From: Streptacidiphilus sp. P02-A3a
GTDB taxonomy: Bacteria; Actinomycetota; Actinomycetes; Streptomycetales; Streptomycetaceae
Length of the DNA: 64,000 nt
Direction: 5' to 3'
Assembly (NCBI RefSeq): GCF_014084105.1
Contig: NZ_CP048289.1
Span: forward strand, 5,775,922-5,839,921
Positions 60,772 through 63,576 of the stretch are shown one piece after another (position 1 is the stretch's first letter; each line of letters opens with the position of its first letter). The notes beneath the pieces were generated by a model. That model was given only the letters and a program-made list of their open reading frames with translations, had not been told where the DNA came from and ran no database searches. The translations under genes were made by a program, and so were the position numbers.

Positions 60772-61548
60772 TCACGAAATCGGGGGCTCCGGGGACCGGC
60801 TCCGGGACCTCGGTGCGGCCAGCACGCAGTCGCCGCAGAACCCGCCCGCGCCGTCCGGCGCCGCGCGGTAGATCAGGCAGCAGCTGCGGCGGCGGAACCG
60901 CCCGGCGGCGTCCACCTCCGCCGCCCCGCGCAGGGACGGATGGTCGAGCAGCCGCGCGGCGATCACCCGCGCCCGCCCGGCCTGGGCCGGGGTGGTCCGC
61001 GGCGAGGCCGCCAGCACCGTGACCGCGCCGCCCAGCGCGGACGCGGCGTTGCCCCGGAGGATCAACCCGGACACCGAGAACGGGCGCACCGCCGCCGCCA
61101 GTTCGCGTACCGGGCCGTCCAGCAGCAGCTCGCCGAGCAGCGCCGCCAGCTCGGCGGGGGCCACGGCCCGGTCCGGAACCGGCCGCCGCGGCACCGAGAG
61201 CGGGAACATCCCGCCGGGCACCGGCTGCCAGCGCAGGCCGTCCAGCCCGAGCGGCAGCGGGACGCCGAGGATCGCGGCGGTGGCCAGGGCCGGTGACAGC
61301 AGCCTGGCCACCAGGCCCAGGTGCGCCACCGACGCGGCCACCCGCGGCTCCACCGCCGTCACCGGCAGCCCCGCGCGGGCCGCCAGTTGGGCGCGCACGC
61401 CGTGCACCCGCGCCGCCAGCGTCCCCGGCTGGGTGACCAACTCGCGCAGGTCGCGCCAGGGTTCGACCGGGGCCGGGCCGGGGTCGTGGGTCTCGAAGGC
61501 GAAGAACGGGCCGAGCGCCACGATCGACTCGAAGCCTGTGCCGCTCAT
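60772..61548 (-). CDS. FhuF-like (2Fe-2S) ferric siderophore reductase
   Basis: 258 residues. The C-terminal motif RRSCCLIYRAAPDGAGGFCGDCVL provides the four cysteines (CC-x10-12-C-x2-C) that bind a [2Fe-2S] cluster in FhuF-type ferric-siderophore reductases; the rest is a helical domain with little similarity beyond the family. It would reduce and release iron from siderophores in the cytoplasm. No siderophore synthesis or uptake gene is adjacent. It shares a strand with lepB and the methyltransferase, with gaps of 116 and 79 bp. Confidence 0.85.
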   Translation of the reverse strand: MSGTGFESIVALGPFFAFETHDPGPAPVEPWRDLRELVTQPGTLAARVHGVRAQLAARAGLPVTAVEPRVAASVAHLGLVARLLSPALATAAILGVPLPLGLDGLRWQPVPGGMFPLSVPRRPVPDRAVAPAELAALLGELLLDGPVRELAAAVRPFSVSGLILRGNAASALGGAVTVLAASPRTTPAQAGRARVIAARLLDHPSLRGAAEVDAAGRFRRRSCCLIYRAAPDGAGGFCGDCVLAAPRSRSRSPEPPIS

Positions 61549-61627: not shown

Positions 61628-62476
61628 TCAACCGGTGGCGGGCCTGGTGCCGACCACCACGGTCGAGTACAGCTCCTGCGACACCGCCAGGCGCGGGCGC
61701 AGCCCGTTCCCGGCGAAGCTGTCCAGGGCCGACCGGGACTGCCGCTCGCTGGCCTCGACCAGCAGTGATCCGCCGGGCGCCAGCCAGCGCGCGGCCTCCC
61801 GGGCGACCCTGCGCATCACGTCCAGGCCGTCGGCCCCGCCGTCGAGGGCCACCAGCGGCTCGTGGATCCGGGCCTCCGGCGGCAGCAGCCCGACCTCCTC
61901 GGTGGGCACGTAGGGCACGTTGGCGAGCAGCACGTCCACCCGGCCGAGCAGTGCGGCGGGCAGCGCGTCGAACAGGTCGCCCGCGAAGACCCGGCCACCG
62001 GCGTCGGCGACGTTGCGCCGGGCGCAGCGCACGGCGGCGGGGTCGATGTCGGCGGCGTACAGCTCGACCGGGCCGAGCAGCGAGGCCACGGCCGCGCCGA
62101 TGGCGCCCGAACCGCAGCACAGGTCGACCACCACCGCTCCGGGCCGTCCGAGCGCGGCGGCCTGCCGGACCAGGAACTCGGTGCGCCGCCGGGGCACGAA
62201 GACGCCGGGGTCGACGGCGATCCGCAGACCGCAGAACTCGGCCCAGCCGAGGACGTGTTCCAGCGGCAGGCCGTCGATCCGACGGCGCACCATGGCGTCG
62301 AGTCCGGCCTGGTCAGCGGCGGTGTCGAGGAGCAGTCGGGCCTCGTCCTCGGCGAAGACGCAACCGGCCGCGCGGAGCCTGAGCACCACGGCCTGCTCAG
62401 AGAGGCCGTCGGAGTCGACGCCGGTGGGATCGACCTCGGTGGCATCGACGCCGGTGGGATCGGGGAAGTCTGACAT
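61628..62476 (-). CDS. HemK/PrmC-related protein-(glutamine-N5) methyltransferase paralogue
   Basis: 282 residues. Residues 100-140 have the SAM motif VVVDLCCGSGAIGAAVASLLG and the catalytic loop is LLANVPYVPTEEVG, where the canonical NPPY is NVPY. That variant marks the PrmC-related subfamily of unknown protein substrate, distinct from release-factor methyltransferase. The N-terminus has a short repeat (DPTGVDATEVDPTGVDSD). The ATG at 62476 is directly after a leader stem; in-frame starts at 62500 (ATG) and 62506 (TTG, with GGAGAG five bases before) are alternatives. Regulation through the structured leader is likely. Confidence 0.82.
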   Translation of the reverse strand: MSDFPDPTGVDATEVDPTGVDSDGLSEQAVVLRLRAAGCVFAEDEARLLLDTAADQAGLDAMVRRRIDGLPLEHVLGWAEFCGLRIAVDPGVFVPRRRTEFLVRQAAALGRPGAVVVDLCCGSGAIGAAVASLLGPVELYAADIDPAAVRCARRNVADAGGRVFAGDLFDALPAALLGRVDVLLANVPYVPTEEVGLLPPEARIHEPLVALDGGADGLDVMRRVAREAARWLAPGGSLLVEASERQSRSALDSFAGNGLRPRLAVSQELYSTVVVGTRPATG

Positions 62477-62600
62477 GAGAGCCTTTCGGGATTCCTGCAT
62501 ACCCAAGGGCGCTCTCCGGCCGCCTACAGCAGGCGGTCCTCACCGCTGCGGGAGGAGAGCACCCGGTCCGGACTTGCGTTGATGGGTCTCACCTCCTCGG
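62477..62600 (-). promoter_or_regulatory. Structured leader before the glutamine-N5 methyltransferase paralogue
   Basis: Read on the minus strand. A stem pairs GGAGG-T-GAG-ACCC with GGGT-G-CTC-T-CCTCC, enclosing ATCAACGCAAGTCC; this hides a perfect AGGAGGTGA ribosome site. Next come GCGGT/ACCGC and CCGCCT/AGGCGG stems, then GAGAGC/GCTCTC, whose 3' side ends at the ATG at 62476. A 22-codon ORF (62592 to 62524) fills the leader. The arrangement is that of a translational attenuator. Confidence 0.6.
62524..62592 (-). CDS. Possible 22-codon leader ORF
   Basis: GTG-started frame beginning MRPINASPDR and ending SGEDRLL, whose stop codon lies in a CCGCCT/AGGCGG hairpin. The AGGAGG directly before the GTG leaves no spacer, so the true start may be another codon, for example the ATC seven bases further. 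It ends 47 bp before the methyltransferase ATG. Its main value is probably regulatory. Confidence 0.4.
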   Translation of the reverse strand: MRPINASPDRVLSSRSGEDRLL

Positions 62601-62709
62601 TACCGTCCACGTTCTGGAGCGGCCCACCCTACCCGATCCGGGTCCCGGGTCCGGACGGGGCTCGGCCGCGGATCTTTGACCGGGCCTGGGCGGCGGGTTA
62701 CCGTCCGGT

Positions 62710-63576
62710 GTGGAGATCTTGACGTACACGGCATTCAGCACCGATCCCGCCGGGGGGAACCCGGCCGGGGTGGTGCTCGACGCGAGCGGTCTGGACGACG
62801 CGGCCATGCTGGCGGCGGCGGCGCGGGTCGGCTTCTCCGAGACGGCCTTCGTACTGCCGGGCGAGGACGGCCAGTTGGACGTCCGCTACTTCAGTCCGCT
62901 GGCCGAGGTGCCGTTCTGCGGGCATGCCACCATCGCCCTGGCGGTCGCCTGGGCGCACCGGTACGGCGTGGGCGGGCTGCGGCTGCGGACCAAGGCCGGA
63001 CCGGTGGCCGTGGCCACCGCCGGGGCCGACGACGGCACGGTGGCGGCGACCCTGGTCAGCGTGCCGCCGCGGACCCGGCCGCTGGCCGGGCCCGAGCTGG
63101 CCGAACTGCTGGCCGCGCTGCGCTGGTCGGCGGACGACCTCGATCCGGCGCTGCCGCCGCGGGTGGCCTACGCCGGGGCGTGGCATCCGGTGATCGCCGC
63201 CGCCGGCCGGGAGCGGCTGGCCGCGCTGGACTACGACCTGCCCGCGCTGGCCGAGCTGATGCGGCGGGCCGACTGGACCACGATCGACCTGGTGTGGCGG
63301 GAGTCGGAGACGGTGTTCCACGCGCGGAACCCGTTCCCGCCCGGCGGTGTGGTCGAGGACCCGGCGACGGGTGCGGCGGCCGCGGCCTTCGGCGGGTACC
63401 TGCGGGAGCTGGGGCTGGTCGCCACCCCGGCAGAGCTGACCGTGTTCCAGGGACAGGACCTCGGCCGCCCGAGCACCATCGGGGTGGGTGTCCCGACCGA
63501 GCCGGGCAGCGGGATCTCGGTCACCGGTGTGGCCGTGCCGCTGCCTCCCGGCCGCCTCGCCGGGGGCGCGTCCTAG
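62710..63576 (+). CDS. PhzF-family isomerase/epimerase-like enzyme
   Basis: 288 residues of the PhzF family: MEILTYTAFSTDPAGGNPAGVVLDASGLDDAAMLAAAARVGFSETAFVLPG with the catalytic Glu in FSETAFV, then FSPLAEVPFCGHATIALAVA and ARNPFPPGGVVEDPATGAAAAAFGGYL. PhzF acts in phenazine synthesis, but most members lie outside such clusters and their substrate is unknown; no phenazine genes are near. TACCGT (62699-62704) ends five bases before the GTG, so the mRNA may be leaderless. The 3' end overlaps the STAS gene by four bases. Confidence 0.9.
   Translation: MEILTYTAFSTDPAGGNPAGVVLDASGLDDAAMLAAAARVGFSETAFVLPGEDGQLDVRYFSPLAEVPFCGHATIALAVAWAHRYGVGGLRLRTKAGPVAVATAGADDGTVAATLVSVPPRTRPLAGPELAELLAALRWSADDLDPALPPRVAYAGAWHPVIAAAGRERLAALDYDLPALAELMRRADWTTIDLVWRESETVFHARNPFPPGGVVEDPATGAAAAAFGGYLRELGLVATPAELTVFQGQDLGRPSTIGVGVPTEPGSGISVTGVAVPLPPGRLAGGAS

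Follow-up and report, generated by a model that had tools for sequence, protein, structure and literature searches.

Translational attenuators of the ermC and cat type consist of four strands, in which helices 1:2 and 3:4 alternate with helix 2:3, and the downstream Shine–Dalgarno sequence (SD) and start codon lie in 3:4. Initiation of the infC type takes place at AUU, AUC or AUA. In Streptomyces coelicolor, the upstream open reading frames (uORFs) of tiaA and are5sc are described in PMC12421871 as sites of start-codon arrest by lincosamide, streptogramin A and pleuromutilin (LSAP) drugs, with toeprints obtained using Streptomyces venezuelae ribosomes. According to PMC10719064 and PMC12802891, the rifamycin-associated element (RAE) of rox, helR, rgt and arr is a palindrome of 19 bp that sits in the 5' region of these genes. 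Here, we analysed a 64,000-nucleotide stretch of Streptacidiphilus sp. P02-A3a (contig NZ_CP048289.1, positions 5,775,922 to 5,839,921; hereafter, the window), in which a leader at 62477-62600 on the minus strand lies directly before the ATG, at 62476, of a PrmC-related methyltransferase gene. We propose that this element is a translational attenuator that responds when a ribosome is stalled at the start codon of its short uORF, a reading that we regard as probable.

We assessed the conservation of the leader in related genomes. A blastn query of 191 bases spanning the leader had matches in 31 of 61 relative genomes; the true leader pattern was found in 24 of the 61, whereas a reversed-pattern control gave no match in the same set. 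This conservation was the decisive evidence that the leader is real rather than a chance hairpin. A covariance model (R1) placed the element directly upstream in 55 of 80 fetched TIGR03704 loci, 38 of which were in the R1 training set and 17 of which lay outside it. The R1 match in the window spanned 62468-62598 (106 bits), and no further match was found elsewhere in the 508,705 bases searched. All 55 positive loci were actinomycete (Streptomyces, Kitasatospora, Streptosporangium, Nonomuraea, Actinomadura and others), and the 25 loci without the element included all seven of Bacillus, Paenibacillus, Brevibacillus and Seinonella. One R1 match (genome G577, L305), with no gene of the leader-associated set downstream, was rejected as a chance match.

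At other sites, these genomes also contained a sister form of the conserved block, with ATG replacing ATC. We used 18 sister-form leaders to build model R2, which at E <= 1e-5 matched 112 of 394 actinomycete genomes and 43 of 138 genera; of 58 further matched places that were fetched, 56 showed a leader recognisable by pattern. The genes downstream of the sister form encode alpha/beta hydrolases (nearest solved structure, esterase 4ao6), rifampin monooxygenases (rox), patatins and GNAT acetyltransferases, as well as TIGR03704 methyltransferases. The monooxygenase of L141 scored 846.8 bits against a cut-off of 800, with 5vqb among its solved-structure matches. The genome of the window itself carries a second copy of the leader upstream of an alpha/beta hydrolase gene (L171). 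At another locus (L285), divergent rifampin monooxygenase and alpha/beta hydrolase genes each have their own leader (927-1046 on the minus strand and 1248-1377 on the plus strand). Plasmid records (PLSDB) also bear the leader, many of the matches being annotated with rox or alpha/beta hydrolase; NC_008269.1, NC_016113.1 and NZ_LT559118.1 are such replicons, and Rhodococcus jostii RHA1, Streptantibioticus cattleyicolor and Nonomuraea gerenzanensis are among the carriers.

Rfam 15 gave no match above the gathering score at the leader in the window region and 13 homologous loci (E up to 5 or 1), in agreement with the initial annotation of this DNA, which had not recognised the RNA as a named class. 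Weak Rfam matches to microRNAs and small RNAs, all below gathering scores, were rejected as chance, and the P10 match sits in a coding region, not in the leader. A description of the leader was not found in a literature search of incomplete coverage, so that its absence from print is not shown. Judged from these sequence comparisons, the leader is a real, widespread and uncatalogued RNA family with attenuator anatomy.

The general anatomy comprises four strands that form the mutually exclusive helices 1:2, 2:3 and 3:4, of which 3:4 closes the downstream ribosome site and start codon (Table 1). Duplex energies in the window were -23.5 kcal/mol for 2:3 and -9.9 kcal/mol for 3:4, and the arrangement is more than chance, a comparable three-strand one having arisen in 24 of 2000 dinucleotide shuffles of the leader stretch. 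The initial annotation had described a perfect ribosome site sequestered by a downstream segment and a last GAGAGC/GCTCTC stem abutting the methyltransferase ATG; both are in place, and CTCTCCTCC is complementary to GGAGGTGAG at 8 of 9 bases with a single T.T mismatch. The pairing partners that it had assigned are present, but the strand CTCTCC has a second, stronger partner in GGAGAGCGCCC (62517-62507). Its 22-codon frame had to be revised: this was counted from a GTG inside the SD, and the homologues place the start three codons later at ATC, leaving 19 codons. The GTG, which shares the frame of the ATC, was rejected only because it lies within the SD–anti-SD duplex.

We aligned 56 methyltransferase leaders, leaving out those with long middle insertions (alignment A1), and 58 of 59 chosen leaders, leaving out L224 (alignment A3). 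In A1, helix 2:3 showed 97.5% paired cells and 19 double-changed cells, a level reached by 0 of 500 shuffles. Helix 3:4 was 91.4% paired across its six pairs, and the whole 3:4 structure was 85.4% paired. Columns 44 (strand 2), 103 (strand 3) and 142 (strand 4) changed together, reading T-A-T in 17 and C-G-C in 9 of the 56 leaders; therefore, both alternative helices of strand 3 are held. In leaders of the ATG/GTG forms, strand 3 is extended by a strand 3a that pairs with bases between the downstream ribosome site (SD2) and the start codon (4b). The spellings of 3a and 4b differ by gene group (GGTGTCGCC with GGCAACACC; GGTCGTCC with GGCACGACC; AGTCGCC with GGCGACT), and L119 carries a compensated change (GGTATCGCC with GGCAATACC). 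We also compared, without alignment, the own strand pair of each of 164 leaders with pairs swapped between gene groups. The own pairs were more stable for 3a:4b (-9.4 versus -6.7 kcal/mol) and for 2:3 (-19.6 versus -18.8 kcal/mol). The leader is conserved and its alternative helices 2:3 and 3:4 covary, which agrees with the structured leader first annotated. Just before strand 2 and outside the four-strand model, CAGG was nearly invariant in the methyltransferase leaders of A1 in any frame; its counterpart in the window (62571-62568) reads CCGG.

The uORF was usually 16-20 codons long, and its SD was strong across leaders. Among 166 distinct leaders, the codon after this site (SD1) was ATT in 55, ATG in 46, GTG in 40, ATC in 18, GTT in 5 and GTC in 2; ATT, ATC, GTT and GTC are hereafter called NTY codons. 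Read from this codon, 74 of 80 NTY leaders and all 86 ATG/GTG leaders reach a stop codon after 42-66 nt, compared with 24 and 3 of 80 and with 0 and 17 of 86, respectively, in the other two frames. In each of the 164 leaders in which strand 3 was recognised, the stop in the start-codon frame came before it, by 7-17 nt in 151; the stop also preceded strand 3 in 19 of 19 leaders in which the spacing to strand 2 breaks the frame. When a GTG within strand 2 was taken as the start instead, the frame stopped before strand 3 in only 4 of these 19 informative leaders, and this candidate was rejected. The kept frame and the placement of the stop suggest that the uORF is translated.

The initial annotation had likened the leader to those of erm methyltransferase genes, which depend on drug-induced stalling of the ribosome at a particular leader peptide sequence. 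The uORF and the alternative helices agree with such a device, and many leaders encode a WVLP-like peptide. However, strand 2 is read in three frames depending on the gene group (WVLP, HGCS and MGAP). Sequence diversity at the three positions of codons 10-19 was 0.417, 0.505 and 0.464 in 50 NTY leaders with a 57-nt frame; i.e., change was not in excess at the third position. No sequence-specific arrest peptide was found; the first three codons are conserved, and the amino acids past about codon 6 are not. Moreover, a ribosome beyond codon 3 would cover strand 2. We therefore consider peptide-specific arrest quite unlikely: the attenuator anatomy is well supported, whereas a peptide signal is not visible and the geometry points to the start codon.

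The choice of start codon differed by downstream gene. All 78 methyltransferase leaders, labelled by motif, start with ATT, ATC, GTT or GTC and never with ATG or GTG; every leader of a monooxygenase, GNAT or patatin gene begins with ATG or GTG, as do 47 of 49 hydrolase leaders, the other 2 having NTY. The pattern used to collect leaders permitted G at the third base of the start codon. Gene labels were assigned by motif, the hydrolase motif being loose, and double labels were ranked in the order PrmC, rox, GNAT, patatin and hydrolase. Drift around a single codon does not account for this split: the third base is always a pyrimidine on one side and nearly always G on the other. This poses the question of why one branch of a uORF switch avoids ATG throughout.

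One answer would be that the leader senses free ribosomes or the quality of initiation, such that occupancy of SD1 by the 30S subunit alone is the on signal. NTY starts would slow or prevent formation of the 70S ribosome, and the leader would read the state of free 30S subunits, initiation factor 3 (IF3) and initiator tRNA, for example once a block of RNA polymerase has depleted mRNA, instead of a drug on the ribosome. The exclusive use of NTY codons in the methyltransferase leaders, the 9-base perfect match of SD1 in the window and the link to rifampin monooxygenase are consistent with this explanation; in addition, extended SDs with non-canonical starts mark regulated initiation sites in Staphylococcus aureus, according to PMC13009471. 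However, 86 of 88 non-methyltransferase leaders use ATG or GTG with identical geometry, and the frame past the NTY codon is kept to the stop in 74 of 80 leaders, so it is translated at least sometimes. For these reasons, we regard initiation sensing as unlikely.

A ribosome on a start codon reaches to about nucleotide 15-16, as judged from the toeprint distance. The first base of strand 2 is nucleotide 20 of the uORF in 134 of 166 leaders, and in every leader it falls within nucleotides 17-23; therefore, strand 2 lies just outside a ribosome on the start codon and inside any ribosome that has advanced. We modelled folding of the transcript up to a newly made strand 3 with the ribosome footprint placed codon by codon. 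The predicted probability of helix 2:3, P(2:3), was 0.26 overall without a ribosome (rox leaders, 0.04; hydrolase leaders, 0.05; methyltransferase leaders, 0.51). With the P site on codon 1, 2 or 3, the model gave 0.83, 0.78 and 0.21, respectively; values were about 0 for codons 4-13, 0.08 for codon 14 and 0.45 for codon 15.

We propose the following sequence of events for the switch. In the absence of a ribosome, strand 1, which contains SD1, would pair with strand 2, so that 3:4 forms and SD2 and the downstream start are closed (off). During normal translation, the ribosome would cover strand 2 and halt just short of strand 3, and 3:4 would again form (off). A ribosome held on codon 1 or 2 would cover strand 1 and leave strand 2 free to capture the nascent strand 3, whereupon strand 4 and SD2 would be open (on). 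The likeliest natural triggers would be blockers of the first peptide bond of the lincosamide, streptogramin A and pleuromutilin types, drugs that keep ribosomes on start codons; we propose these by analogy because the start-codon arrest in tiaA and are5sc is the nearest precedent. The downstream set, comprising the methyltransferase, the hydrolases, the monooxygenase clade, the acetyltransferases and the patatins, would then be drug- or target-modifying enzymes. Conservation, covariation, the kept frame, the spacing and the set of genes are read from the sequences; from these we infer the on/off logic, the start-codon arrest, the trigger and what the genes do.

Several results weigh against this start-codon switch. 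Covariation of 3:4 in the methyltransferase group was modest: two of five measures were matched by more than 100 of 500 shuffles (pairs with double change, 117; further pair types, 133), and in the swap test the own pairs of this group (-19.0 kcal/mol) were only slightly more stable than the swapped ones (-18.4 kcal/mol). Helix 1:2 showed no covariation (-17.8 versus -17.6 kcal/mol on swapping), though its pairing is kept in all groups. The leaders are related by descent, so that the counts overstate the number of independent events. In the folding model, the loss of 2:3 under a covered strand 2 is built into the set-up, and the model informs only on the spacing and the unbound state. In the unbound state, the window leader had a predicted P(2:3) of 1.00, so its default may be on; this copy leans to the on form in the model, and elongating ribosomes may switch it off. 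At equilibrium, the accessibility of SD2 in the full leader hardly changed with the position of the ribosome, and in rox and hydrolase leaders it dropped with the ribosome on the last codons. Taken as the read-out, equilibrium accessibility of SD2 showed no switching, which counts against a purely thermodynamic switch. Therefore, the start-codon model needs kinetic trapping in the course of transcription, in which 2:3 forms first and is held.

The default state of the window copy also bears on whether the uORF acts constitutively, in coupling or re-initiation, with helices that only set basal expression. Short leader genes can reportedly raise expression by re-initiation (PMC4833913), and the window leader is predicted to be open by default. 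However, tens of bases separate the uORF stop from the downstream start, and without a switch it would be difficult to account for mutually exclusive helices that covary three ways. We consider a constitutive device very unlikely.

We next considered transcription of the element. Of 78 methyltransferase leaders, 68 have the hexamer TAnnnT at -48..-28 of the SD, where shuffles lead one to expect 6.1, and a -10 hexamer was also upstream in 25 of 25 monooxygenase leaders and 45 of 47 hydrolase leaders. With the -10 upstream of the element, the transcript should therefore contain the leader, and the transcription start appears not to lie downstream of it, as the initial annotation of a leader had presupposed. 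The position of the block just downstream of a conserved -10, together with the presence of rifampin monooxygenase among the gene families that bear it, would also fit a DNA element, such as an operator or a part of the promoter, of which the RAE is an example. Indeed, the occurrence of the leader before rox genes led us to suspect that it was the RAE. The RAE that we recovered from sequences upstream of helR and rox reads GGG(C/G)CTTGC(G/C)GCAAG(G/A)CCC, and we scored it with up to three mismatches allowed. Of 24 helR loci, 21 had the RAE, as did 19 of 29 rox-type loci. Among these 29, 5 carried the leader, 0 carried the two together, and 5 had neither, four of the latter being distant relatives below the cut-off. 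No RAE was found in the window, and only 1 of 150 loci (L081-L230) had one, at a distance from the leader (L174). As the recovered RAE shows no overlap with the leader, identity of the two was ruled out. Covariation and frame keeping are signatures of RNA and translation; a DNA element is thus largely refuted, and we give it hardly any credence.

The rox tree was built from 52 proteins, of which 28 were leader rows (three being repeat copies of a locus already included), 19 had the RAE and 5 had neither. The leader-bearing enzymes formed one clade among the RAE-bearing ones with support of 100/100, although the bootstrap had not settled. From this single nested clade, it appears that one rox lineage exchanged RAE control for the leader. 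The rox of the window genome (L280, G000:C1:6256285-6257700) scored above the NCBIfam cut-off and has a degenerate RAE with three mismatches and no leader.

The methyltransferase downstream of the window leader scored 406.7 bits for TIGR03704 (cut-off, 248.8) and fell under the NCBIfam PrmC cut-off (175.7 versus 199.1 bits) and under the PrmB cut-off as well. The leader shared with drug-modifying enzymes suggests that the methyltransferase protects against a translation inhibitor, and a translation component is a plausible target. This bears out the initial view that the leader may guide to the role of the gene, as it is common to the rifampin-monooxygenase clade and other probable drug-modifying enzymes. 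The intergenic gap of 233 bp houses the leader and both promoters, those of the methyltransferase and of the divergent PhzF-family gene.

Table 1. Features of the leader and its surroundings in the window.
Feature	Position	Strand	Basis
Probable -10 hexamer TAGGGT, putative leader promoter	62626..62631	-	sequence read and TAnnnT enrichment in homologues
SD1 AGGAGGTGA, perfect uORF ribosome site	62589..62597	-	nearly invariant in A1 and A3
Strand 1 (GAGGTGAGACCC), partner of strand 2 and tail when ribosome absent	62584..62595	-	duplex 1:2 of -20.2 kcal/mol in window
uORF, ATC start 62583-62581, 19 codons INASPDRVLSSRSGEDRLL, TAG stop 62526-62524	62524..62583	-	frame kept in homologues
Strand 2 (GGGTGCTCTCC), switching strand, first G at uORF nucleotide 20	62554..62564	-	2:3 pairing in A1
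CTCTCCTCC, anti-SD1 tail overlapping strand 2	62551..62559	-	sequence read
Strand 3 (GGAGAGCGCCC), partner of strand 2 (on) or strand 4 (off)	62507..62517	-	three-way covariation in A1
Stem halves GAGAGC and GCTCTC, the latter adjoining the ATG	62516-62511 and 62482-62477	-	sequence read
SD2 GAAAGG, methyltransferase ribosome site	62482..62487	-	CGAAAGG nearly invariant in A1 and A3
Strand 4 (GGCTCTC), overlapping SD2 and abutting the methyltransferase ATG	62477..62483	-	3:4 pairing in A1
PrmC-related methyltransferase, TIGR03704, 282 aa, NVPY motif	61628..62476	-	profile score
Gene after the methyltransferase, FhuF-type 2Fe-2S C-terminal motif	60772-61548	-	motif
PhzF-family isomerase gene, divergent from the leader	62710-63576	+	family assignment

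If the start-codon reading is true, a widespread RNA regulator would be added to the antibiotic-response systems of the main antibiotic-producing organisms, and it would offer a way into the function of several enzyme families for which no substrate is known, foremost the TIGR03704 methyltransferase. Likewise, rox would exist in two regulatory versions, one of them without the rifamycin element, for which the leader would predict a different drug. Tentatively, and leaning rather against it than for it, we also entertain a joint reading of these results. An actinomycete-wide initiation-arrest regulon would place one switch before at least five enzyme families and sense ribosome state at the start codon, not the peptide. 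The methyltransferase branch, obligatorily AUU, AUC, GUU or GUC, would be a direct gauge of initiation (30S occupancy, IF3 and initiator tRNA), and one rox clade would have swapped the RAE for the switch. In that case, the leader-type rox would respond to a translation inhibitor instead of rifamycin and would probably inactivate it.

Finally, we compared the leader with the described systems. It resembles the ermC and cat attenuators in its four-strand topology, its short uORF with its own ribosome site and the exclusive helices that close the downstream site; it differs in that no arrest peptide is conserved past about codon 6 and in that the geometry selects the start codon, not an internal codon. 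Like the RAE, it occurs in the 5' region of actinomycete rifampin monooxygenase genes, but the RAE is a palindrome of 19 bp linked to inhibition of RNA polymerase, and neither the window nor the rox genes with the leader contain it. The strong, extended SD and non-canonical start are common to the leader, the infC type and the S. aureus sites of PMC13009471; unlike in the infC type, the codon starts a regulatory uORF, not a protein, and GTT and GTC occur too. The tiaA and are5sc leaders control ABC-F genes through a terminator (PMC12421871). In our leader, the helix instead closes a ribosome site, strand 4 leads into the region of the start codon and not into a T-run, the genes encode a methyltransferase, hydrolase, monooxygenase, GNAT acetyltransferase or patatin, and the methyltransferase form has NTY start codons. 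Drug arrest at the uORF start codon, described for tiaA and are5sc with a lincosamide, streptogramin A and pleuromutilin, is for our leader a proposal by analogy. Nevertheless, both are actinomycete 5' leaders with a very short uORF whose ribosome site lies inside a switching hairpin, and in both the switching strand would be free with a ribosome on the start codon, as the spacing and the modelled P(2:3) of 0.83 suggest for the leader.
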